Source of the DNA: Pilibacter termitis
GTDB lineage: Bacteria; Bacillota; Bacilli; Lactobacillales; Streptococcaceae
Direction: 5' to 3'
DNA length: 64,000 bases
Assembly: GCF_900167335.1 (NCBI RefSeq)
Contig: NZ_FUXI01000010.1
Coordinates: forward strand, 1 to 64,000
Position numbers and translations under genes: made by a program. Under the pieces are notes generated by a model. It saw only the letters and a program-made list of their open reading frames with translations. It was not told where the DNA came from and made no database searches. Shown piece by piece: positions 7,853 through 64,000 of the stretch. How positions within the stretch are numbered: the first letter of the stretch is position 1; every line of letters begins with the position of its first letter.

Positions 7853-7870
7853 GCTTTTCTTCTCCTTTTT

Positions 7871-7989
7871 CTAGCTACATGGTGCTGAAGTCTGGCAACT
7901 GCTCACAACAGCACTGGAAACTACGTTTCCAGCAAGTAAATGCTGTGGCTCACTGTTGCAGACTTCAAAACGCACCATTACGCTTTTAT
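7871..7989. repeat. Nested palindrome copy B, inside the cyd gene cluster
   Basis: It has the same arms as copy A: ATGGTGC/GCACCAT, GAAGTCT/AGACTTC, GCAAC/GTTGC, ACAGCA/TGCTGT, GGAAAC/GTTTCC. It occupies almost all the space between cydB and cydD, so any cydABD message would contain the whole hairpin. Confidence 0.92.
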
Positions 7990-8042
7990 ATATTGAGCGA
8001 GCTGACAATTTGCCAGCTCGCTTTCTTATTCTTTATTACTAC

Positions 8043-12135: not shown

Positions 12136-12176
12136 AACTCGCATAATATTCGTTTCACACGAGTATTATGCGAGTT
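12136..12176 (-). terminator. Strong hairpin between gltA and the deacetylase gene
   Basis: AACTCGCATAATA (12136-12148) pairs perfectly with TATTATGCGAGTT (12164-12176). The T-run is on the minus-strand side, so it terminates the deacetylase transcript. It probably also helps stop gltA. Confidence 0.8.
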
Positions 12177-12178
12177 AA

Positions 12179-12249
12179 GGGTGCCTATAAAAACTCACGC
12201 TTATCCAAAACTGCTAATTTGGGCTTAATCGGAGTTTTTATAGGCACCC
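12179..12249. mobile_element. Short MITE-like element 1 (71 bp)
   Basis: The terminal inverted repeats are GGGTGCCTATAAAAACTC on the left and the complement ending GGCACCC on the right. The inside is largely palindromic. It is flanked by TTAA on the left and TTAT on the right, an imperfect 4-bp duplication. Its inner sequence matches the ends of the 278-bp elements at 44.8 and 46.7 kb, as if their middle had been deleted. Confidence 0.75.
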
Positions 12250-12266
12250 TTATTTTTCTCTAAAAA

Positions 12267-14719: not shown

Positions 14720-14821
14720 ATTTTTCTCACTTTCTTTTTAGATAAATACAGTATAATCTCTATTTTTTCGTCAAGCAAGAGGCACCTCAAAAAACATTTG
14801 AGATGCCTGTGTGCTATTTAA

Positions 14822-14892
14822 GGATATCTCTAAAAACTCACACTTCCCCACAATTGCTAGTTTTAACTTAATCGGAGTTTTTAGAGTCCCCC
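14822..14892. mobile_element. Short MITE-like element 2 (71 bp), overlapping a coding end
   Basis: The left end GGATATCTCTAAAAA and right end TTTTTAGAGTCCCCC are degenerate versions of the family repeat. The element is flanked by a perfect TTAA duplication (14818-14821 and 14893-14896). Its right end overlaps the last seven codons of the peptide-binding lipoprotein gene. Confidence 0.75.
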
Positions 14893-16520
14893 TTAACATA
14901 AGCCGTTCTGAAATTGTAATAATCCCCATATAAATGGAAAACTACATTTTTCACTTCTGGGCGAATGAGGTAGTTTGAGGCACTTTGATATAGTGGCACT
15001 ACTGCGGTATCTTGTGCGAGCAAGATTTCTTCTGCCTCTTTATATTCCTCAAATACTTTATTTATATCATTGGCGTCCTTTACTCTGGCATCTTCGGTTA
15101 ATTGCGTGTACTTGGCACTTGCATAACCACCATAATTGTATGCCGAACCTGTTTTATAGAGGTTAAAGTAAGAGTCTAAATCGCTACTTCCTGCAATCCA
15201 ACCTGAAATGGAAAGCTCATATTTCTTCTCTTTTCTTGCTTGAAGTGCATTATTTTTCGGCTGTGCTTGAATTTCAATTTTCAATCCTTCTAGGTTTTCT
15301 TGTAATTGAGCTTGCACAAATTCCCCTACTTTTTTAGCATTTTCATCATCATAAACCAATAGTGAAAGAGCAGGCACATTGCCCAATTCTTTTTGTGCCG
15401 TCTTCCATTCCTTTTGTGCCTCCTCTAAATCATATTTCATGTACTCGCCACTATATTTTCTAAAATCCTCTTTTGTTTCTGGATTTTGATACAAATATTG
15501 CGGAATGAAACCATTCAGAGCTTTTGAGCCGTCATTTAAAATCGTTGTTTCTAGTGTTGTTTTATTAATCGCTAGAGCAATCGCTTTTCTCAAATGTACG
15601 TTCGCAAGAGGGGTTCCTTCTTTTTTATTGAAATCAATGAAAACATCTGAAACATCTTGCTGAGAAGTGAAACCGTCCGTTAACTTGTATTGCTCCACAT
15701 ATTGCCCACTTACTTTAGCTAAATCCAATTTTTTCGTCGTAAATAAATCAATGCCTGTATGTTCATCTTTGATTGTATTCCATTTGATTTCTTTCAATTT
15801 TACTGCATTTTTGTCATAATAATGTTCATTTTTGACCAAAGTCCACGTGTCAGAATCTTGTGTCCAATCTTTTAGCGTAAACGGTCCTGAGTAAAGAATG
15901 TTTTCGCTACTTTTTGCGTATTCTTTTCCAAGTTTTGTGACATATTCTTCTTTTTGCGGAGCAAGCCAACCAATTGAAATCACTGAGAGAAATGACGGTT
16001 GTGCCTGATTGAGATGAACGATAAATGTCGTATCATTTGGCGTTTCAAGTCCTATTTTGTCAATAGACAACTTCCCTTGACGAATTTCCAAGCTGTTTTT
16101 CACACTATCCAAAAGATAAGCATTCGGCCCTTGTGTCTCAGGATTTACCAATCGTTTCCATGCAAAAGCAAAATCTTTTGAAGTAATCACACTTCCGTCA
16201 CTCCACTGAATATCTTTACGCAAAGTAAAAGTATAGTCTTTCCCGTCCTTGCTCACCTCTAATTTCTCCGCAAGTGCAGGAATTGGTTGACTTTCGTCAT
16301 CAAAACGGTACAATCCTTCAAATAAATGTTGAACAATTGTGAATGTATTTTTATCCATTGTCTGCGTTGTATCCAAAGTCGATAGCGGTGTTGGAGAGCT
16401 TACGGTGATTTTTTGTTCTACCTCTGTTTGTTTCTCTGATTTCTTCTCTGCCTTGCCACACCCTACTAAAATCAATGTCGCAAGTGTGAACACTCCTAAT
16501 AATTTGCCTATTTTTTTCAT
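14868..16520 (-). CDS. Oligopeptide-binding lipoprotein (OppA family, SBP_bac_5)
   Basis: This roughly 550-residue extracellular receptor delivers peptides to an ABC importer. It has a lipoprotein signal peptide with lipobox LVGC (Cys about 21). The family core follows: LSTLDTTQTMDKNTF, YRFDDESQPIPALAEKLEVS and KDYTFTLRKDIQWSDGS. A longer frame begins at 16577, but that stretch lies in a repeat. The ATG at 16520 has AAAGGAGAAAATTC upstream and starts the signal peptide. No permease or ATPase gene is adjacent, so it is an orphan receptor. Its last seven residues (GDSKNSD) are encoded by the end of a MITE-like element, so the C-terminus has been replaced or extended. Confidence 0.92.
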   Translation of the reverse strand: MKKIGKLLGVFTLATLILVGCGKAEKKSEKQTEVEQKITVSSPTPLSTLDTTQTMDKNTFTIVQHLFEGLYRFDDESQPIPALAEKLEVSKDGKDYTFTLRKDIQWSDGSVITSKDFAFAWKRLVNPETQGPNAYLLDSVKNSLEIRQGKLSIDKIGLETPNDTTFIVHLNQAQPSFLSVISIGWLAPQKEEYVTKLGKEYAKSSENILYSGPFTLKDWTQDSDTWTLVKNEHYYDKNAVKLKEIKWNTIKDEHTGIDLFTTKKLDLAKVSGQYVEQYKLTDGFTSQQDVSDVFIDFNKKEGTPLANVHLRKAIALAINKTTLETTILNDGSKALNGFIPQYLYQNPETKEDFRKYSGEYMKYDLEEAQKEWKTAQKELGNVPALSLLVYDDENAKKVGEFVQAQLQENLEGLKIEIQAQPKNNALQARKEKKYELSISGWIAGSSDLDSYFNLYKTGSAYNYGGYASAKYTQLTEDARVKDANDINKVFEEYKEAEEILLAQDTAVVPLYQSASNYLIRPEVKNVVFHLYGDYYNFRTAYVKGDSKNSD

Positions 16521-16536
16521 GAATTTTCTCCTTTGT

Positions 16537-16655
16537 CTAGCTACGAAGTGCAGGAGTTGGGCAACTGTTCGCAACAACGCTCAAAACTTACGTTTTGAGT
16601 AAATAAACGTTGTGGCTCACTGTTGCAAACTCCTTAACGCACTTCTCCGCTTTTC
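16537..16655. repeat. Nested palindrome copy C (tandem array unit 1)
   Basis: The arms are GAAGTGC/GCACTTC, AGGAGTT/AACTCCT, GCAAC/GTTGC, ACAACG/CGTTGT and tip CTCAAAAC/GTTTTGAG. It is the first of five tandem units filling the space between the lipoprotein gene and the M20 hydrolase gene. Confidence 0.92.
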
Positions 16656-16662
16656 TTTTTGT

Positions 16663-16781
16663 CTAGCTGCGAAGTGCTGAAGTTTGGTCGCTGTTCGCAA
16701 CAGCACTGGAAACTAAAGTTTCCAGCAAGTAAATGCTGTGGCTCTCTGCGACAAACTTCAAAACGCACTTCTTCGCTTTTC
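16663..16781. repeat. Nested palindrome copy D (tandem array unit 2)
   Basis: The arms are GAAGTGC/GCACTTC, TGAAGTTTG/CAAACTTCA, GTCGC/GCGAC, ACAGCA/TGCTGT and tip CTGGAAACT/AGTTTCCAG. The third arm is GTCGC/GCGAC where most copies have GCAAC/GTTGC; both sides have changed together. Confidence 0.92.
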
Positions 16782-16786
16782 TTTGT

Positions 16787-16904
16787 CTAGCTGCGAAGTG
16801 CAGGAGTTTGGTAACTGTTCACAATGTCGCTCACAACTTCGTTGTGAGTATATAAACGACAGTGTTCACTGTTGCAAACTCCTTATCGCCCCTCTTCGCT
16901 TTTC
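16787..16904. repeat. Nested palindrome copy E (tandem array unit 3, mismatched outer arm)
   Basis: The left outer arm is GAAGTGC but the right outer arm is GCCCCTC, which belongs with GAGGGGC. The inner arms are AGGAGTTTG/CAAACTCCT, ATGTCG with CGACAGT, and CTCACAAC/GTTGTGAG. It looks like a chimera of the neighbouring GAAGTGC-type and GAGGGGC-type units. Confidence 0.88.
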
Positions 16905-16909
16905 TTTGT

Positions 16910-17027
16910 CTAGCTACGAGGGGCAGGAGTTGGGTAACTGTTCACAATGTCGCTCACAACTTCGTTGTGAGTATATAAACGACAGTGTTCACTGTTGCAA
17001 ACTCCTGATCGCCCCTCTTCGCTTTTC
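16910..17027. repeat. Nested palindrome copy F (tandem array unit 4)
   Basis: The arms are GAGGGGC/GCCCCTC, AGGAGTT/AACTCCT, GTCG/CGAC and tip CTCACAAC/GTTGTGAG. It is nearly identical to copy G, offset by 123 bp. Confidence 0.92.
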
Positions 17028-17032
17028 TTTGT

Positions 17033-17150
17033 CTAGCTACGAGGGGCAGGAGTTGGGTAACTGTTCACAATGTCGCTCACAACTTCGTTGTGAGTATATA
17101 AACGACAGTGTTCACTGTTGCAAACTCCTGAACGCCCCTCTTCACTTTTC
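17033..17150. repeat. Nested palindrome copy G (tandem array unit 5)
   Basis: It matches copy F except for a few bases. It ends one base before the stop codon of the M20 hydrolase gene. The five units C-G fill 16537-17150, and nothing else is seen in this 630-base gap. Confidence 0.92.
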
Positions 17151-17151
17151 T

Positions 17152-18369
17152 TTAATTCCCTCTTGCTACATTAATTTTGTGTTCTTCTTTTATCGCATTA
17201 AGTGTTTCCTCGTTTTCCAGTAGTTCAAGTGCGGTGCGGGCTAAGAGTTCTGCTGCAATGGCAATTGAATGTAACCCTTTTTCACTTTTCGCCGCTGCTT
17301 TAAATTCTTCTGTGTGAGGAACAATATACTCATCAGAAATGGATACTGTCGGCTGAATCGTTGGAATCACTTGACTCACATTTCCAACATCTGATGAACC
17401 AATACTACTCATAGGCTCTAATCGTTCGATTTCTTCCTCTGGAATAGCCAATTCCTCAAGATGACGGAAAAATACCTCGTCAAATTTTGGAACTAAAATC
17501 GTATCGTCCACGGCATTTTGGAACAAACCATATTCATAACTCGCCCCTGTCATAAGAGAGGCACCATGCACAACATTTTCAACTTTTTTATAAACTTCAT
17601 TTAGCGTTGTGCGATTTTTTGCACGCAAGAAAAATCTTCCTGAGGCGAAATCTGGCACTACATTTGCCGCTCTACCACCGTCTGTGATAATGCCGTGAAT
17701 ATTGACATCACTTGGCAAATGAAGTCTTAGTCCATTAATGCCATTGAACACTTGAATTAACGCCTCTAGTGCATTGATTGCTTTTTCAGGAGCTGAGGCT
17801 GCGTGGCTTGATATGCCATGAAATTTTATATCTACTGGATCATTGGCAAGTGTGTGCGTTGTCTTGGTGTAGCGATAGTTTGGATGAACACAAAGTGCCG
17901 CATCTACATCCTCAAAATAACCTTCTCGCACAAAACTTCCTTTTGCTGAACCATTTTCTCCGCCCTCCTCACCGGGAGTGCCATACACACGAATTTCACC
18001 GCCTACTTCATCAATCACCTGTTTTAACGCACTTGCTGCTAAAACAGAATACGTGCCAAAAAGATTATGCCCACACGCATGCCCAATTCCTTCCAAAGCG
18101 TCATACTCTGCAAGAAATACAAGCGTTGCCCCCTCTTTTTCTGCCTTATATCGTGCATCAAATCCTGTCCGATGTCCTGCTACATCTTTCTCAACAGAAA
18201 ACCCTTCTTTTTTCAACTGCTGAATCAAAAGGTCGGAAGAGTAAAATTCATAATTGCTCACTTCAGGATTGGCATGAATTTCAAGGGCAAGTGCTTGATA
18301 CTCTGGCAAACGTTGTTGAATAAACTCTTTGAAAATAGTGTGTGCTGTTTGTTTTATTGTTGTACTCAT
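17152..18369 (-). CDS. M20 family amidohydrolase (AbgB/N-acyl amino acid hydrolase-like)
   Basis: This roughly 405-residue metal-dependent hydrolase is of the M20D type. The motif GIGHACGHNLFG near residue 95 carries a metal ligand Cys-Gly-His, and GTPGEEGGENGSAKG carries the catalytic Glu pair. The region from about 190 to 310 is the lid/dimerisation domain. Relatives cleave aminobenzoyl-glutamate, N-acyl amino acids or indole-acyl conjugates; the substrate is not set by sequence. The ATG at 18369 (AGGAGA upstream) is preferred to a start at 18429, which would add a non-homologous hydrophobic stretch. The stop abuts palindrome copy G. Confidence 0.88.
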   Translation of the reverse strand: MSTTIKQTAHTIFKEFIQQRLPEYQALALEIHANPEVSNYEFYSSDLLIQQLKKEGFSVEKDVAGHRTGFDARYKAEKEGATLVFLAEYDALEGIGHACGHNLFGTYSVLAASALKQVIDEVGGEIRVYGTPGEEGGENGSAKGSFVREGYFEDVDAALCVHPNYRYTKTTHTLANDPVDIKFHGISSHAASAPEKAINALEALIQVFNGINGLRLHLPSDVNIHGIITDGGRAANVVPDFASGRFFLRAKNRTTLNEVYKKVENVVHGASLMTGASYEYGLFQNAVDDTILVPKFDEVFFRHLEELAIPEEEIERLEPMSSIGSSDVGNVSQVIPTIQPTVSISDEYIVPHTEEFKAAAKSEKGLHSIAIAAELLARTALELLENEETLNAIKEEHKINVARGN

Positions 18370-18601
18370 TGACTGTTCTCCTTCTATTTTTTTAGTTGTC
18401 GCGTAGATATAGAAAAAGACTCTTACCATTCATCACTGACAAAAGGATAATTGAAAGGGGTTACTACCTTTTGTTTGGGAAATTTATCTTTTCTTTATCA
18501 TATGGAAAGTATTTATCTAGCGTTTTCTTAAATTTTAGTTTACACACCAAAAGTTTCAAAGTCAACGGGTGATGAGATAGATTTTTTCTATCGTCATACG
18601 C

Positions 18602-26681: not shown

Positions 26682-27536
26682 TTACGAACCACCTTTTTTC
26701 TTTTTTTTGAACCCAACAACCCCTATGCTCACAAGGAGCATAGAAATGCAAAGAGTCGCACCAAGCGTGGCGAACAAGAAAAGAGAATGTTGTTTTTTCT
26801 TTTCTTTTATTTTTTCTACCTCACGCATCATGCTTGGCGTGAAATCTACACGTTTTCCTGTTACCAGCAAGCGTTGGGTGTTCACACCGATTGGGACACA
26901 CGTTACAAGGGTGGTTAAATCCAAGTCTTTTTTCGGCTCTCCTGCCTGTAAATCACTCGGGGAAACTTCTTTTATTTCAAAGATTTTGTACGCATAGTAC
27001 ACACCTGAAATTTTGTAAACAATCAAATCTTCTTGTTTGAGATTTGGCACATCATTGAACAATTTTGCGTGCGGAATCCCTGAATGTCCTGCAACGACGG
27101 AATGATTGTTAACTCCTCCTGTGAGTTTGCCACTTTTGGCAAGCCAGACAGCTCCAGCTTGTAAAAATTCTTCACATTCGTTGTCGAAAATCGGAAGTGA
27201 TTGTTCAATAGTAGGCAAATAAATTTCGCCAATCGTATGCTCTACATACATCGAGAGCGTCCGCTCATTAACATTCAACTTCTTCAAACTTTCTGCAGAA
27301 TATGGGTCTTCTAACGCCTCAAGCCTTGCTTCTTCTTGACGTTTGTCCATTTGTTGCTCTAGTGCTTGCTGATTCTTTTGTGTCGCATTTCTTTCTTCCA
27401 TGATGTTTTCCGCCATGATTTCATTGATAGAATGAAGCAACACTGGAAGAGCGAGAGAGCCAACGCCAACCAACAAACTCACTACAACTCCAATCGTGAG
27501 AAGAAATTCACGTGTTCGCCTTTTTTGTTCATCCAT
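26682..27536 (-). CDS. srtC: Class C sortase (pilus polymerase), first copy
   Basis: This 284-residue paralogue of the other sortase has an N-terminal helix, VAGHSGIP, and the catalytic TLVTCVPIGVNTQRLLVTG, followed by VDFTPSMM and a C-terminal helix. It overlaps the 3' end of the tip adhesin gene by eight bases, so translation is coupled. Two polymerases in one operon usually divide the work of shaft polymerisation and of adding the tip or base pilin; which does which cannot be told here. The ATG has AAAGGAGC upstream. Confidence 0.93.
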   Translation of the reverse strand: MDEQKRRTREFLLTIGVVVSLLVGVGSLALPVLLHSINEIMAENIMEERNATQKNQQALEQQMDKRQEEARLEALEDPYSAESLKKLNVNERTLSMYVEHTIGEIYLPTIEQSLPIFDNECEEFLQAGAVWLAKSGKLTGGVNNHSVVAGHSGIPHAKLFNDVPNLKQEDLIVYKISGVYYAYKIFEIKEVSPSDLQAGEPKKDLDLTTLVTCVPIGVNTQRLLVTGKRVDFTPSMMREVEKIKEKKKQHSLFLFATLGATLCISMLLVSIGVVGFKKKKKGGS

Positions 27537-30315
27537 GCTTGCTCCTTTGGTGAAAATACAGGAAGAAAGCTACGCTTAAAAAACCACTGAGTGCAACAAG
27601 TAACGGCAGTTTCAATCCTCCACCACCTGTTTGTGGAAGTAAAATTCCTTGTACTCGATACGTGTTTGTTATAATCGTCACAATTGGATTTGTATCGTCA
27701 TACGCCACTTGATAAGCAACAGGCAAGTTTACCTCTTGCACCGTGTAAACAATCGCCGTTTTGCCGTCTGAACGGTATTTCTCAAGTTTATCCCACGTAC
27801 ATTCCCAATGATTGCCTTCATTAAGCGTCCTTTCACTATTTGGCACTTCTGCATTATCGGCAAATAATTTCACTTTGATTGCCGTTGGTCTCTGCCCTGC
27901 TTGGTCGTTGTTGTCAAGCCAGATTTTTCGGGCGGTGTGGGTGGTGGTTGGCGGAACATACGTGTTGGTAATGATTGTAATAACTGTTTTCGTATTGTCA
28001 TAAGAAACAATGTAATCGCTCGGTGTATTTACCTCTTTCACGGTATAGTTAATTTCAACTAAGCTATTGCTTTGATATTGGGGCAAATCACTCCAGTGAT
28101 ACGACCAGTTATTGCCAGCATTTAAAACGACTTCGCTATTTGGCACTTCCACATCATCTGCAAAAAGTTTTACACTAATTTCACTTGGACGTTTTCCTAC
28201 TTGATTATTATTATCGTCCCATATTTTTTTCACCTCATGCGTAGTCTTTGGCGGAACATAAGTGTTTGTGATTATCGTAATTTCAGTTTTCCTATCGTCA
28301 TAGGAAACATCATAATCGCTTGGTATACTACTCTCTTTCGCAGAATAGTGTATTTCTGTTGTTCCGTCATGTTGATATTGCAAAAGATTTTTCCATTGAT
28401 ACGACCAACCATTACTTGCATTTAAGGTAACCTCACTACCTGCAACCTCCACATCATCTGCGTATAACTTCACCTTAATCTCGCTCGGTCTTTTGGCAAA
28501 TTGATTGTTGTTATCATTCCAAACCTTTTTTACTTCGTGAATAGTCGTGGGTGGAACGTAAGTATTCGTAATAGTTGTAATTTCTGTTTTCGTCTCATCG
28601 TAAAAATCGGTATAATTCGTTGGAACACTGACTTCCTTAACGGTGTATTGAATTTCAGTTGAATTGTTACTCTGATATTTTGGCAAATCCTTCCATTTGT
28701 GCGACCAATTATTGTTGTTATTTAACGTAATTTCACTATTTACCACTTCTCGATTGTCAGCGTACAATCTTACTTTGATTTCATTCGGACGCTTAGAAAA
28801 CCGGTTATTGTTATCGTTCCAAACTTTTATGACTTCATGCGTAGTAGTAGGCGAGACATACGTGTTTGTGATTGTGGTAATTTCTGTTTTCTTATCGTCA
28901 TAAGAAACCGTGTAGTCAGCTGGTGTATTGACTTCCCTTGCCGTATAACGAATTTCCGTTGTGCCGTTGCTTTGATATTTGGCAAGATTTGCCCAAATAT
29001 GCGACCAGTTATTTCCTGCGTTTAGAGTTACTTCGCTACTAGGAACTTCAACACCGTCAGCATACAAGCTCACCTTGATTTCATTTGGACGCTTGTTTGC
29101 TTGATTGTTATTGTCGCTCCATTTTTTCTCCACTTCGTGAGAAGTAACTTCTTCTCGGTAAACACTGATATAACGAGTCGTATCCCCAGTGTTTACTAAA
29201 CGTGCCATATACTGAGAATTTTCTTCTTTCGGAATAATATAACGTAGCTCATAATTCGGACAAGATAAACGGATAATGCCACCGCTTGTATCACCTTTCA
29301 CTATCATGACATTTCCTTGTACCGTAATATCCAACCCTGCATTTTCAAGAACTTTTATCGTGTTTGCTTTCCACTCTTGTGCTAAAACATTGTTCGTATC
29401 TAACAAATCCACCTTGTACTCACTAGCATTTCCAGTCGGTTGCATTTTGTATTTCTTTTCTTCTGCCTTTTGAATTGTTTCCCAAGTAAACGAAGGAAAT
29501 AGCTTGTATTCGTTAGGAATTTCCTTTGCCTTGTAGGCAATTACTGCATCTGTCACTAATTTCCTTGCCATTTTCCCGATTTCACCCGATTGAGCAAATG
29601 CAGTTCCTTGAAGAGAGTTTGCTGCGTTTTCTGGATAGCAGTAAATATCTAAAATGCTTGGCGTGTCTGTTGGATACTTATTCCCACTTTTATACACATT
29701 TTCCGCAACAATCCAAACCGCAATTTGTGTCGCATAGCCAAATTTGGCGTTTTGTAACGCCTCTTCATCTGAATAACCATAACTACTCGCTGCATCTTTA
29801 TGCACATACATTCTTGCACCATTGGCAAGAACATGAGAAAGCAATGCTTTTTGCTCGGCTGAAAAATTTTGTTTTGGGCTTGTTTGCTCTGTAAATTCCC
29901 AGCCTAGCACCGCATTTTTTACATCCGTACAATAATAAGCTTCACCAAAATCACGAGATCTTTCATGGTAAAATACCGCTTCTTTTGCCCCTTTGAAATT
30001 TTTTGGTAAATTTCTCACTTCAAGATTGTAATTCCCTATTACATTCTCATATCCGCCATGCCCTGATGACATATGGAAACTACTTGGCAAGTCTGCCCTA
30101 GGTGTTATCGCTCTTGGAAAAATTGTTCCTAGCTGATTGGAAAGGTAAGGAGGCGTTTGAGTAGCGGGAGAACTATTCAAATACTCCTCAAGTTGATTCG
30201 GCACGCTTAACGTATCAGCTAAAGTAGAGGAAACTTGCACCAACATCAAACATATCACCATAAAACAAAACCATTTAGCTTTAGATAAGGAGTGGTTTAT
30301 TAAAGTCTTTTTCAT
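27529..30315 (-). CDS. Pilus tip adhesin with thioester domain and five Cna_B repeats
   Basis: This 928-residue surface protein has a signal peptide (to about residue 34), then a thioester domain (about 80-280). The bond-forming residues are visible as Cys129 in YYCTD and Gln197 in ATQIAVW. A linker domain follows. Five tandem Cna_B repeats of about 88 residues each open with a variant of T-H-E-V-x-K-x-W-x-D-N-N-N and close with ITNTYV. The end is LLPQTGG, a helix and HQRSKHG. Such tips bind host surfaces covalently through the thioester. It is first in the five-gene operon. The first four repeats are much more alike than the fifth, which suggests recent duplication. The start has GAGGAGGTGATGAAGAA. 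Confidence 0.9.
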   Translation of the reverse strand: MKKTLINHSLSKAKWFCFMVICLMLVQVSSTLADTLSVPNQLEEYLNSSPATQTPPYLSNQLGTIFPRAITPRADLPSSFHMSSGHGGYENVIGNYNLEVRNLPKNFKGAKEAVFYHERSRDFGEAYYCTDVKNAVLGWEFTEQTSPKQNFSAEQKALLSHVLANGARMYVHKDAASSYGYSDEEALQNAKFGYATQIAVWIVAENVYKSGNKYPTDTPSILDIYCYPENAANSLQGTAFAQSGEIGKMARKLVTDAVIAYKAKEIPNEYKLFPSFTWETIQKAEEKKYKMQPTGNASEYKVDLLDTNNVLAQEWKANTIKVLENAGLDITVQGNVMIVKGDTSGGIIRLSCPNYELRYIIPKEENSQYMARLVNTGDTTRYISVYREEVTSHEVEKKWSDNNNQANKRPNEIKVSLYADGVEVPSSEVTLNAGNNWSHIWANLAKYQSNGTTEIRYTAREVNTPADYTVSYDDKKTEITTITNTYVSPTTTHEVIKVWNDNNNRFSKRPNEIKVRLYADNREVVNSEITLNNNNNWSHKWKDLPKYQSNNSTEIQYTVKEVSVPTNYTDFYDETKTEITTITNTYVPPTTIHEVKKVWNDNNNQFAKRPSEIKVKLYADDVEVAGSEVTLNASNGWSYQWKNLLQYQHDGTTEIHYSAKESSIPSDYDVSYDDRKTEITIITNTYVPPKTTHEVKKIWDDNNNQVGKRPSEISVKLFADDVEVPNSEVVLNAGNNWSYHWSDLPQYQSNSLVEINYTVKEVNTPSDYIVSYDNTKTVITIITNTYVPPTTTHTARKIWLDNNDQAGQRPTAIKVKLFADNAEVPNSERTLNEGNHWECTWDKLEKYRSDGKTAIVYTVQEVNLPVAYQVAYDDTNPIVTIITNTYRVQGILLPQTGGGGLKLPLLVALSGFLSVAFFLYFHQRSKHG

Positions 30316-34445: not shown

Positions 34446-34452
34446 CTTTTGT

Positions 34453-34561
34453 CAGCTGTGAGGGGCTGGCAACTGTTCGCAACAGCACTGGAAACTGCGT
34501 TTCCAGCACGTAAATGCTGTGGCTCACTGTTGCAGACTTCAAAACGCCCCGCTCGCTTTTC
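34453..34561. repeat. Nested palindrome copy H (left second arm deleted)
   Basis: The outer arms are GAGGGGC and GCCCCGC, the third GCAAC/GTTGC, the fourth ACAGCA/TGCTGT, tip CTGGAAAC/GTTTCCAG. The left copy of the second arm is missing (the sequence goes straight from GAGGGGCTG to GCAAC), while the right copy (AGACTTC) remains, leaving it unpaired. Confidence 0.85.
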
Positions 34562-34566
34562 TTTGT

Positions 34567-34684
34567 CTGGCTACGAGGGGCAGGGGCTTGGTCGCTGTTC
34601 GCAATGCCACCTGAAGCTCTGCTTCAGGCAAGTAAATGGCATGGCTCACTGCGACAATCCCCTGAACGCCCCTCTTCGCTTTTC
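34567..34684. repeat. Nested palindrome copy I
   Basis: The arms are GAGGGGC/GCCCCTC, AGGGGcTTG/CAATCCCCT (one mismatch), GTCGC/GCGAC, ATGCCA/TGGCAT and tip CCTGAAGC/GCTTCAGG. It is tandem with copy H, between the convergent kinase and permease genes. Confidence 0.9.
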
Positions 34685-34687
34685 TGT

Positions 34688-44795: not shown

Positions 44796-44803
44796 ATTTA
44801 TAT

Positions 44804-45081
44804 GGGCACCTCTAAAAACTCCGCTTAATACCAAATTAGATAGTTTTCCGTTTTTCGAGGAAATCGACGAAAGCTATGTGGTTCATAGAAAAGCGAAGAA
44901 GTGCGTTAAGGAGTTTGCAACAGTGAGCCGTGTCGTTTATTTACTCGAAACTTTAGTTTCGAGCGACACTGCGAACAGTTGCCAAACTCCTGCACTTCGG
45001 AGCTAGACAAGGTTGAGGAGATTGACGAAGAAAAACGGAAAACTAGCAATTTGGGATAAGTGTGAGTTTTTAGAGGTGCCC
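44804..45081. mobile_element. Long MITE-like element 4 (278 bp) carrying a nested palindrome
   Basis: The terminal inverted repeats are GGGCACCTCTAAAAACTC and its near-complement. A perfect ATAT duplication (44800-44803 and 45082-45085) flanks it. The inverted repeat similarity continues inwards for about 60 bases on each side (a CAAATTAG region, then GTTTTCCGTTTTTCG). Palindrome copy J lies in the centre. It has no coding capacity. It occupies the leader of the downstream ABC operon. Confidence 0.85.
44889..45006. repeat. Nested palindrome copy J (inside element 4)
   Basis: The arms are GAAGTGC/GCACTTC, AGGAGTTTG/CAAACTCCT, CAAC/GTTG, GTGTCG/CGACAC and tip CTCGAAACT/AGTTTCGAG. Its orientation is opposite to copies A-I. 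Confidence 0.92.
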
Positions 45082-45108
45082 ATATGCTAAACAGAAAGGG
45101 GAACAATT

Positions 45109-46730: not shown

Positions 46731-47007
46731 GGGCACCTCTAAAAACTCCGCTTAAGACTAAATTAGCTACTTTTTCGATTTTCGAGGAAATCGACGAAAG
46801 CTATGTGGTTCATAGAAAAGCTAAGAGGGGTGTTCAGGAGTTTGTCGTAGTGAGCCATGCTATTTACTTGCTTGAAACGAAGTTTCAAGTAGCATTGCGA
46901 ACAACGACCAAACTCCTGCCCCTCCTAGCTAGACAAGGTTGAGGAGACTGACGAAGAAAATCGGAAAACTAGCAATTTAGGATAAGTGCGAGTTTTTAGA
47001 GGTGCCC
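46731..47007. mobile_element. Long MITE-like element 5 (277 bp) carrying a nested palindrome
   Basis: The terminal repeats are GGGCACCTCTAAAAACTC and its near-complement, flanked by a perfect TAAA duplication (46727-46730 and 47008-47011). It lies in the same orientation as element 4 and is closely similar outside the central palindrome. With element 4 it brackets the two-gene ABC operon. Confidence 0.87.
46816..46932. repeat. Nested palindrome copy J2 (inside element 5)
   Basis: The arms are GAGGGGt/GCCCCTC (one wobble), AGGAGTTTG/CAAACTCCT, GTCG/CGAC, ATGCTA/TAGCAT and tip CTTGAAAC/GTTTCAAG. Its arms differ from those of copy J although the surrounding element is nearly the same. Confidence 0.9.
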
Positions 47008-47014
47008 TAAATAT

Positions 47015-49252: not shown

Positions 49253-49354
49253 CTGCTCACCTAATTCCTATTTCTTCCCTTTTCATATGGCTACCCATAA
49301 TATCAGCTTACTATTATACTGGATAAATTGGGATATGGGAATTAAAATGGATAG

Positions 49355-49531
49355 AAAAGCGGAGAGGGGCGTTCTGAAGTTTGCAACAGTGAGCCGTGCC
49401 GTTTACTTGCTACTACACTTCGTTTCGCATACAGTCTTTCTAAGAATCAAAGATTCTTGAAAGACTAGCATTGAAACGAAGTTTCAAGCGGCACTGCGAA
49501 CAGTTGCCAAACTTCAGCCCCTCGCTGCTAG
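49355..49531. repeat. Nested palindrome copy K (with extra 60-bp hairpin module)
   Basis: The arms are GAGGGGC/GCCCCTC, TGAAGTTTG/CAAACTTCA, CAAC/GTTG and GTGCCG/CGGCAC. The tip carries an extra block (about 49412-49475) with its own hairpin AGTCTTTC...GAAAGACT around AAGAATC/GATTCTT. Copy M at 62.7 kb carries the same block at the same place. Confidence 0.9.
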
Positions 49532-49537
49532 ACAAAG

Positions 49538-49654
49538 AAAAGCGAAGAAGTGCGTTTAGGAGTTTGTCGCAGTGAGCCACAGCATTTACTTGCTGGAAAC
49601 ACAGTTTCAAGTAGCGTTGCGAACAGTTGCCAAACTTCAGCCCCTCATAGCTAG
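49538..49654. repeat. Nested palindrome copy L (chimeric, arms do not match)
   Basis: The left half has GAAGTGC, AGGAGTTTG, GTCGC and CAGCAT; the right half has GCCCCTC, CAAACTTCA, GTTG and GCGTTG. The halves come from different arm types, so only the framework and the tip region can pair. It is tandem with copy K. K and L take up most of the 450-base gap upstream of helD; nothing else is seen there. Confidence 0.88.
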
Positions 49655-49662
49655 ACAAAGAA

Positions 49663-62596: not shown

Positions 62597-62623
62597 TTTT
62601 TCACCTCTTTTGCTTTTCTTTGT

Positions 62624-62801
62624 CTAGCTGTGAGGGGCTGAAGTTTGGCAACTGTTCACAATGTCGCTTGAAGCTTCGCTTCAATGCTAGTCTTTCAAGA
62701 ATCTTTGATTCTTAGAAAGACTGTATGCGAAACGAAGTGTAGTAGTAAATAAACGACATGGTTCACTGTTGCAAACACCTAAACGCCCCTCGTAGCTTTT
62801 C
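62624..62801. repeat. Nested palindrome copy M (with extra 60-bp module)
   Basis: The arms are GAGGGGC/GCCCCTC, GTTTG/CAAAC, GCAAC/GTTGC and GTCG/CGAC, with GAAGC/GCTTC at the tip. The added block (about 62686-62745) carries AGTCTTTC/GAAAGACT and is the reverse complement of the block in copy K, 13 kb away. It lies inside the pduP-pduQ-like gene pair. Confidence 0.9.
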
Positions 62802-64000
62802 TTATCTAATCGAAAAGCCGTCTGTTAGTACGCATCTGCGTTTTCTTGCGAAGTTTCTTGCTGTTGTTGTGCATTCTCCTGTTGGGGTGGCGATTGTGAA
62901 TGTGGTTGCTCCTTCTCCACCAAAGCCAAGTCCTGCAAAAGAGGGGCCATTTTTAACAAAAATAGATGTTTGGAATTTTCGTCCTGCTAGGTTCAGTCGT
63001 CCAATATTTTGCGAGTGCATAGTTGCTGTGTGGTGTAATTTTTGCTCAATTCTCAGTGCAACATTTAGTGCCTCATCAAAATTTTGAACGGCAACAATCG
63101 GTAAAATTGGCATGAGCATTTCTTTCATAACAAAAGAGTGGGTTTCTTTCGTTTTCATGATAATCAAACGAACGTCAAAATCAACATTCACTCCAGCTTC
63201 TTGCAAGATGAAATTCGCATTCTTGCCGATAAATTTTCGACTTGGTTCACCATTTGGTGTAATCGTCAACTGCTCAAGTTTTTGAATGACTTTCTCATCC
63301 TTAATCAAGTAAGCACCTGCTTTTTCCATTTGAAGAATTAAATAATCGGCAATATCTTCTACTGCTACGACACTTTTTTCAGCAATACATAAAATATTAT
63401 TGTCAAAACTTGCACCAGCAACAATATCTCTCCCCGCTTTTTCAATATTTGCTGTTTCATCTACAATTGACGGCGGGTTGCCTGCTCCTGCTGCGATTAC
63501 TTTTTTTCCCGATTGCATTGCTTGGCGAACAACCGCAGGACCTCCTGTAATCACGAGCAAATCAATCCCCTCATGCGTCATCATTTCTTGAGCTGCTTGA
63601 ATGGAGGGCTCTTTTATCGTAACAATCAAATTTTGAATACCGCAGGTTTTATAAACTATTTCGTTTAGTTTAGCTACTGTCCAACGAGAAATTTTTTTCG
63701 CCCCCGGGTGAACACTGAAATAAACAGCATTCCCTGCTGCGAGCATTCCGATTGCGTTACAAATCAATGTTTCTGCGGGGTTTGTACTCGGTGTAACAGC
63801 TCCAATGACACCATAAGCGGATAACTCGTAAAGTGTCATGCCATTGTCGCCCGTTTCCGCCTCGGTGAGCAAGTCTTCTACACCCGGTGTTTTATCTAAA
63901 ACAAGTTGTATCTTTAATTTTTTATCTTCCACTCTCCCCATACCTGTTTCTTCAAATGTACGCTCAGCTATCTCTGAGATGAAACAAGACATTTCTTTTT
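62802..64000 (-). CDS. CoA-acylating aldehyde dehydrogenase (PduP/EutE-like), 5' end beyond window
   Basis: At least 396 residues are visible and the frame is open to the window edge, so the N-terminus (and any microcompartment-targeting helix) is missing. It converts propionaldehyde or acetaldehyde to the acyl-CoA. Family signs are LYELSAYGVIGAVTPSTNPAET-type text near visible residue 55, VHPGAKK near 95 and the catalytic Cys near 202 in FDNNILCIAEK. The C-terminal GEGATTFTIATPTGECTTTARNF is typical of PduP/EutE. A following iron alcohol dehydrogenase, channel and kinase support a pdu/eut operon. Confidence 0.9.
   Translation of the reverse strand, partial: KEMSCFISEIAERTFEETGMGRVEDKKLKIQLVLDKTPGVEDLLTEAETGDNGMTLYELSAYGVIGAVTPSTNPAETLICNAIGMLAAGNAVYFSVHPGAKKISRWTVAKLNEIVYKTCGIQNLIVTIKEPSIQAAQEMMTHEGIDLLVITGGPAVVRQAMQSGKKVIAAGAGNPPSIVDETANIEKAGRDIVAGASFDNNILCIAEKSVVAVEDIADYLILQMEKAGAYLIKDEKVIQKLEQLTITPNGEPSRKFIGKNANFILQEAGVNVDFDVRLIIMKTKETHSFVMKEMLMPILPIVAVQNFDEALNVALRIEQKLHHTATMHSQNIGRLNLAGRKFQTSIFVKNGPSFAGLGFGGEGATTFTIATPTGECTTTARNFARKRRCVLTDGFSIR

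Follow-up and report, generated by a model that had tools for sequence, protein, structure and literature searches.

The five hairpins lying head to tail at 16535-17152 of the window (i.e., the whole 64,000-nt stretch of DNA analysed, contig 32 of the 59 that make up the 2.79-Mb source genome) are best read, at slightly better than even odds (a probability of roughly 0.55), as copies of a mobile, gene-less hairpin element which acts through its folded sense strand, is probably transcribed, and is kin in kind to the BOX, EFAR, and bcr repeats. We demonstrated that the fold of this element is conserved through compensated changes, and we established how the element is inserted, oriented, bounded, and distributed.

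The initial annotation of the window had described a nested palindrome array of five tandem units at 16537-17150, with at least 14 copies in the window as a whole. Both descriptions agree with the sequence and with our covariance model R1: the five units are present as described, and the copies of the window total 14, including two that carry an extra tip hairpin of ~59 nt and one that lacks part of arm 2 (Table 1). CTAGCTAC occurs five times, against 0.39 occurrences expected from shuffles, and the first copy of the array has a folding energy of −50.4 kcal/mol (z = −6.1). The array occupies the entire gap between the stop codon of an M20 peptidase gene and the Shine-Dalgarno sequence (SD) of a gene encoding a solute-binding protein. 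The best relatives of the M20 peptidase belong to Enterococcus, Vagococcus, and Tetragenococcus (71-77% identity), which places the source organism in the Enterococcaceae. Several M20 orthologues present an intrinsic terminator after their stop codon, in place of the array. The deletion of a target terminator at this locus was considered and dropped, as the orthologues are too distantly related and are followed by different genes. Elsewhere in the window (27832-29128), five repeats with a 300-nt spacing lie within a large ORF (27529-30315) and likely correspond to repeated protein domains.

Table 1. Positions of the element copies and of associated features (window coordinates unless a locus is named; for element copies of the window, the strand is the inferred sense, i.e., RNA, strand GAAAAGC...GCTAGAC)
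Feature	Position	Strand	Evidence or remark
Element copy near contig start	34..156	-	R1 132.1 bits
Lone element copy	7869..7990	-	R1 128.3 bits
Solute-binding protein family 5 gene, begins at array 3′ boundary	14868..16520	-	Pfam PF00496, 249.6 bits
Shine-Dalgarno AAAGGAG, right at array 3′ boundary	16528..16534	-	Sequence
Element copy 1 of array	16535..16657	-	R1 140.9 bits
Element copy 2 of array	16661..16783	-	R1 136.4 bits
Element copy 3 of array	16785..16906	-	R1 122.8 bits
Element copy 4 of array	16908..17029	-	R1 129.7 bits
Element copy 5 of array	17031..17152	-	R1 129.3 bits; sense 5′ end adjoins M20 peptidase stop codon, offset -2
M20 peptidase (amidohydrolase) family gene, stops at array 5′ boundary	17152..18429	-	Pfam PF01546/PF07687
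Element copy, deletion in one side of arm 2	34451..34563	-	R1 88.2 bits
Element copy	34565..34686	-	R1 136 bits
Host inverted repeat GGGCACCTCTAAAAACTC...GAGTTTTTAGAGGTGCCC bearing element	44800..45085	.	Six element-free copies give empty site
Element copy inside another inverted repeat	44886..45008	+	R1 144 bits; filled/empty comparison
Element copy, equivalent position in second copy of that inverted repeat	46813..46934	+	R1 135.4 bits; filled/empty comparison
Composite element copy, ~59-nt extra tip hairpin	49352..49533	+	
Element copy, several arms mismatched	49535..49656	+	R1 95.9 bits
Composite element copy, ~59-nt extra tip hairpin	62622..62803	-	
Second (host) repeat family	44800-45085, 46731-47010; also L013, L027, L074, L077, L078, L092		
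rRNA-operon elements	L048 1501-1622; L188 1501-1621; L142 291-409	sense	

The unit is ~123 nt long, and the better supported reading strand, hereafter the sense strand, is the reverse of the one first read, i.e., GAAAAGC...GCTAGAC. From its 5′ end, this strand presents AAAAGC, a symmetric 3-nt loop, arm 1 (7 bp), a 4-nt 5′ bulge (GTTN), and arms 2 and 3; then an A·A mismatch, 2 bp, a tandem G·A/G·A mismatch, and another 2 bp; and, distally, arm 4 (6 bp), an 8-nt 5′ bulge (TTTATTTA), arm 5 (8 bp), and a tip loop of 3-4 nt. Read on the opposite strand, the G·A/G·A mismatch becomes an unusual tandem U·C/C·U. Beyond the five arms, the fold includes an AGC/GCT helix on its outer side and an outermost G-C/T-A pair that covaries. 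It also has a short helix separating arm 3 from arm 4, as well as internal loops that are conserved. The extra tip hairpin (AGTCTTTCAAGAATC...GATTCTTAGAAAGACT) is nearly invariant and is carried by 18 copies, the two of the window and 16 more; in this subfamily, the surrounding arms still vary in matched pairs despite the near-invariance of the tip hairpin.

BLAST found 108 element matches in the source genome and the covariance model at least 150 full matches, while the stretches around matches contain 343 matches, 242 of them full length, grouped in 115 arrays of one to nine matches; drawn from such stretches, these counts are lower bounds. The assembly is broken by the repeats, with contig ends inside arrays (G000 C9, C12, C23, C32, and C52) and runs of N tied to arrays at L026, L028, and L085. 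Since contigs start, stop, or are gapped inside arrays, copy numbers are underestimated. The arm alleles first reported in the window are real and recur genome-wide: the 242 full copies show 10, 15, 9, 14, and 15 distinct perfectly paired alleles at arms 1 to 5, respectively. As for the free combination of arms, the picture is divided. These copies display 169 distinct five-arm combinations, but arm 4 is strongly associated with arm 5 (MI z = 17) and moderately with arm 3 (z = 9), and the five arms can no longer be called fully independent.

That it is the fold, and not the sequence, which is conserved had been proposed from these paired changes, with a lack of covariation named as the finding that would speak against it; the covariation tests run here gave significant covariation under a tree-based null. 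In the source genome, matched-pair changes are observed at every arm level, and the pairs with the strongest unsupervised scores lie in the fold. Because the copies of this genome recombine and share ancestry, relatives were used for the covariation test. A MAFFT alignment of seven copies from other genera and 10 own copies, built without fitting to the structure, unlike alignments A4 and A6, displays double changes at 37 of the 39 pairs. With 42 copies from relatives, 38 of the 39 pairs show double changes, and the score reaches 0.823 against 0.225 for shuffled and at most 0.150 for slid alignments; with 83 distinct copies aligned class-wide, all 39 pairs do so (0.803 against 0.206 shuffled and at most 0.123 in slid registers). 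The tree-based null, written for this analysis in the manner of R-scape, is conservative. Under this null, the 19 significant pairs of the Lactobacillales set all lie in the structure, and the class-wide set (83 copies) gives 28 significant structure pairs and a single pair outside the structure, located in the register next to that of a structure pair. The own-genome set taken alone gives only five significant pairs; there, ~94-95% of the cells are Watson-Crick and one-sided states are very few.

The element is not restricted to its source genome. Model R1 has matches in 7 of 149 Enterococcaceae genomes, the source genome included, and model R2 in 10 of 337 genomes of the family and, in a sample of the order, in members of three other Lactobacillales families. 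A repeat with the same ends was expected to occur in Bacillales. A pattern search for these ends found it in 4 of 151 Bacillales genomes, and R2 aligned one of them at E = 1e-8, which relates the Bacillus-type repeat to our element. Model R3 then has matches in 47 of 349 sampled Bacilli genomes, belonging to 26 of 135 genera. When used on 249 Bacillota genomes, a search that doubles as a specificity control, R3 gave matches in Bacilli alone and none in about 240 non-Bacilli Bacillota. The tandem spacing of ~124 nt is seen again across families. Copy numbers, which are lower bounds in each of the relatives, are very different from one relative to another, and no copy was detected in most of the sampled genomes. 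Four elements used as queries had no match in plasmid and phage collections.

Insertion can be read at one nested site. A second, MITE-like repeat family, with ends GGGCACCTCTAAAAACTC...GAGTTTTTAGAGGTGCCC and a length of ~165 nt without insert, hosts the element at one fixed internal position (Table 1); an 84-nt inverted repeat present in two copies (window 12169-12252 and 14812-14895) resembles a shortened GGGCACC host repeat. In the six element-free copies, TTCAT is directly followed by AGGTTGAGG, whereas in the filled ones the element (AGAAAAGC...GCTAGACA) stands between TTCAT and AGGTTGAGG. At this site the insertion is clean, i.e., without any duplication above 2 bp. Different element types are found there on differing host-repeat backgrounds, which points either to repeated insertion at the same point or to exchange between copies.

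The two boundaries of the arrays are not equivalent. The last copy is truncated on its 3′ side in 21 of 48 arrays in relatives and in 12 of 79 own arrays, with 12 to 64 nt of the 5′ part left, whereas the mirror case, a 5′ truncation, is nearly absent (0 of 47 in relatives and 1 of 102 in the source genome; random-position control, 0 of 148). Hence, arrays start at a fixed point and have ragged 3′ ends. Inside arrays, adjacent copies are less alike than in order shuffles (0.746 versus 0.768, with one shuffle in 400 as low) and next-but-one copies are more alike (0.818 versus 0.779, with none in 400). Own arrays thus tend to alternate (ABA, ABAB) and not to form runs of identical neighbours; duplication in pairs, or the loss of identical neighbours, would explain this alternation. 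The REP-type (Y1) system that the initial annotation had suggested looking for was not recovered: PF01797 has no match in the genome, which is 98.7% complete, and controls matched in 5 of 14. A search for Y2 transposases gave no match and is uninformative, since its control also matched nowhere. In the stretches around matches, we found neither an autonomous form, carrying an ORF in its tip, nor element halves flanking an ORF, as in a parent insertion sequence.

The mismatched pairs point to one of the two strands. On the sense strand, G·U pairs outnumber A·C pairs in the source genome (175 versus 80), in the Lactobacillales relatives (76 versus 17), and class-wide (153 versus 51). This excess argues against a cruciform and against strand-blind template correction, both of which predict equality. 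The asymmetry marks a strand and not strictly an RNA, G·T being better tolerated than A·C in single-stranded DNA too, and strand-biased C-to-T mutation (deamination) could be part of its source.

The genomic context is also oriented. In the source genome, the neighbours of 112 distinct arrays are sense on both sides in 67 cases and antisense on both sides in six, an excess that holds against an assumed gene-strand bias of 80% (p = 0.008). The loci of other Bacilli show no such imbalance, with both neighbours sense in 11 cases and both antisense in 11. Thus, the orientation bias is lineage-dependent, and the anchoring to stop codons is the more general property. Of 89 sense upstream genes, 47 have their stop codon within 15 nt of the 5′ end, whereas at the opposite end this holds for only 1 of 22 antisense genes located downstream (p = 2e-5), gene calls being longest-ORF heuristics. 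In relatives, the 20 stop codons that qualify are all positioned between −6 and +2 with respect to the element, whose own TAG or T|AA often supplies the stop. At the same 5′ boundary, a simple scan detected a TATAAT-like box just before 15 of 99 array starts. At the 3′ boundary, an SD and a start codon occur no more than 15 nt away in 37 of the 59 arrays that are not nested, compared with 7% of random positions. In three lineages, the element is found in sense at rRNA operons, twice in the 16S-23S spacer and once ~70 nt upstream of the 16S gene (Table 1), where an influence on pre-rRNA processing is possible. In the purS-purQ gap of two other genera (L043 and L051), an antisense element occupies the same place with different compensated arms, apparently between the SD and the start codon of purQ.

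The initial annotation had left the choice among an RNA hairpin, a DNA cruciform, and an enzyme substrate. Wobble pairs, gene orientation, promoter and SD adjacency, and the rRNA copies favour RNA and disfavour a strand-symmetric cruciform, and the context suggests that the element is probably transcribed as RNA. We propose that these non-coding mobile elements of Bacilli depend on a sense strand that must form one long hairpin with fixed bulges. Their insertions are clean and lie between genes, most often at a stop codon or right after a promoter and along the direction of transcription, and the elements would be carried in mRNA, sometimes in pre-rRNA, as untranslated hairpins. Arrays would grow from a fixed 5′ boundary towards a 3′ boundary that varies, as though copying of the sense strand began at a defined point, went through one or more rounds, and broke off randomly. 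The folded sense strand, as RNA or as single-stranded DNA, would be recognised by a putative trans-acting enzyme and, on the host side, the hairpins may mainly alter the stability or the processing of the mRNAs that carry them. A more tentative proposal, to which we give well under even odds, is that this represents a new kind of mobile element, whose hairpin sense strand (RNA or single-stranded DNA) would be copied from a 5′ start at stop codons up to a ragged 3′ end, with a putative Bacilli-wide enzyme.

Other readings have to be weighed against this one. The arrays could be mRNA elements beneficial to the host, kept as hairpins for stability, processing (e.g., by RNase III), or insulation, their mobility being historical. 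The sense orientation, the position behind −10 boxes or in the gap from a stop codon to an SD, the rRNA-operon copies, and a stem conserved across Bacilli all fit with this idea, which we nevertheless consider somewhat doubtful: no tie to particular genes is seen, copy number differs hugely between relatives while most sampled genomes have no detected copy, and clean insertions are found in another repeat. Rather doubtful too is an element acting as DNA only, the folded single strand being the substrate of a recombinase or of an HUH-type nuclease (attC- or IS91-like), with no role for RNA. Fixed 5′ and ragged 3′ ends indeed resemble a one-ended rolling-circle transfer, and clean insertion with a duplication not above 2 bp goes in the same direction, as do the conserved bulges and mismatches; however, the abutment on stop codons and SDs and the sense bias of the source genome follow transcription units, and the genome has no Y1 transposase.

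It is also unlikely that the element serves as a one-way terminator, in which the hairpin read in antisense and followed by TTTTCTTT would stop antisense or convergent transcription, wrong-way upstream insertions being purged. The strand first read does have a T-rich tail, and the sense bias would follow, but a simple terminator scan found none in the array, and the strand-specific wobble tolerance and the ragged 3′ ends would be left unexplained. Finally, it is highly improbable that the palindrome merely corrects itself, replication template switching copying mutations from arm to arm and producing paired changes without selection, as the very few one-sided states of the source genome could suggest, because this predicts perfect pairs and no strand preference, while in relatives G·U exceeds A·C about three- to fourfold, and unpaired bulges and mismatches remain conserved.

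We keep to the reading of a mobile hairpin that works through its sense strand and compare it with known repeats. The initial annotation had named a match to a described family with the same properties as the other finding that would speak against it, and no such match was found: the elements of the window, of relatives, and of Bacillales have no relevant match in Rfam 15 at gathering or relaxed thresholds, and no description of the element was found in the open-access literature, using sequence strings and keywords, EFAR and bcr1 being compared by description. The EFAR repeats of Enterococcus faecalis, said to have been described by Venditti et al. in 2007, are reportedly mostly 170 bp long and made of two separate stem-loops, and are said to insert at stem-loop (terminator-like) targets and to vary in length by modules. 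EFAR repeats are likewise palindromic, mobile, and intergenic and, coming from the same bacterial family, are the most serious candidate for a known member. An EFAR-like targeting of terminators would recall the terminator found at the array site in several M20 orthologues and some arrays of other Bacilli, which end right before a terminator. In contrast, our element is a single nested hairpin of ~120 nt and not a pair of stem-loops. EFAR has been placed among bacterial MITEs (PMC3733652), and the similar Efa-1 family, 163 nt long with 65 copies, is also a pair of adjacent stem-loops (PMC2267715).

The BOX elements of Streptococcus pneumoniae are interspersed, transcribed, and structured, and form a composite of boxA, variable boxB, and boxC (PMC3049150). 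Our element is likewise an interspersed structured repeat with tandem copies, but in BOX only the internal module is tandem, whereas here the whole unit is, as one fold covarying throughout, with no boxA-(boxB)n-boxC composite. The bcr1-bcr18 repeats of the Bacillus cereus group are also interspersed and intergenic in Bacilli; some are MITE-like, some have a conserved RNA structure, and about half are expressed (PMC3446304). Compared by description, they belong to that group, whereas our element spans many Bacilli families. REP/BIME sequences, associated with RAYT (Y1) transposases, are palindromes that measure 20-40 bp and are tagged by GTAG or CGTC (PMC3733652). They share with our element a high copy number and a palindromic, extragenic nature, but the latter has a unit of ~123 nt with GAAAAGC/GCTAGAC ends, no 20-40-nt palindrome bearing such a 5′ tag, and no Y1 transposase. 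As in MITEs of the DDE-transposase type, terminal inverted repeats are present (AGC/GCT and arm 1, imperfect), but without a target site duplication above 2 bp at the one nested site, and the reverse transcriptase expected of a retroelement (PF00078) has no match in the genome. The attC sites of integrons are imperfect palindromes too: their arms vary, but the fold of the single strand and the extrahelical bases are preserved. Our element shares the variable arms and the kept fold, but its ends (GTCTAGC/GCTTTTC) do not contain RYYYAAC/GTTRRRY core sites, it is not associated with gene cassettes, and its conserved features extend along the whole hairpin.

With regard to the open-access literature, the class-wide unity, the complete compensation, the anchoring to stop codons, and the ragged 3′ ends thus appear to be new. 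The anchoring, the sense orientation, and arrays with a fixed start and a ragged end offer handles on the movement of gene-less repeats, a long-open question, and the large natural set of arm variants would allow one to separate experimentally RNA-level from DNA-level recognition. The covariance model would also annotate many so far unexplained intergenic regions. Small interspersed repeats are usually described one species at a time, whereas here one architecture joins many families of Bacilli.
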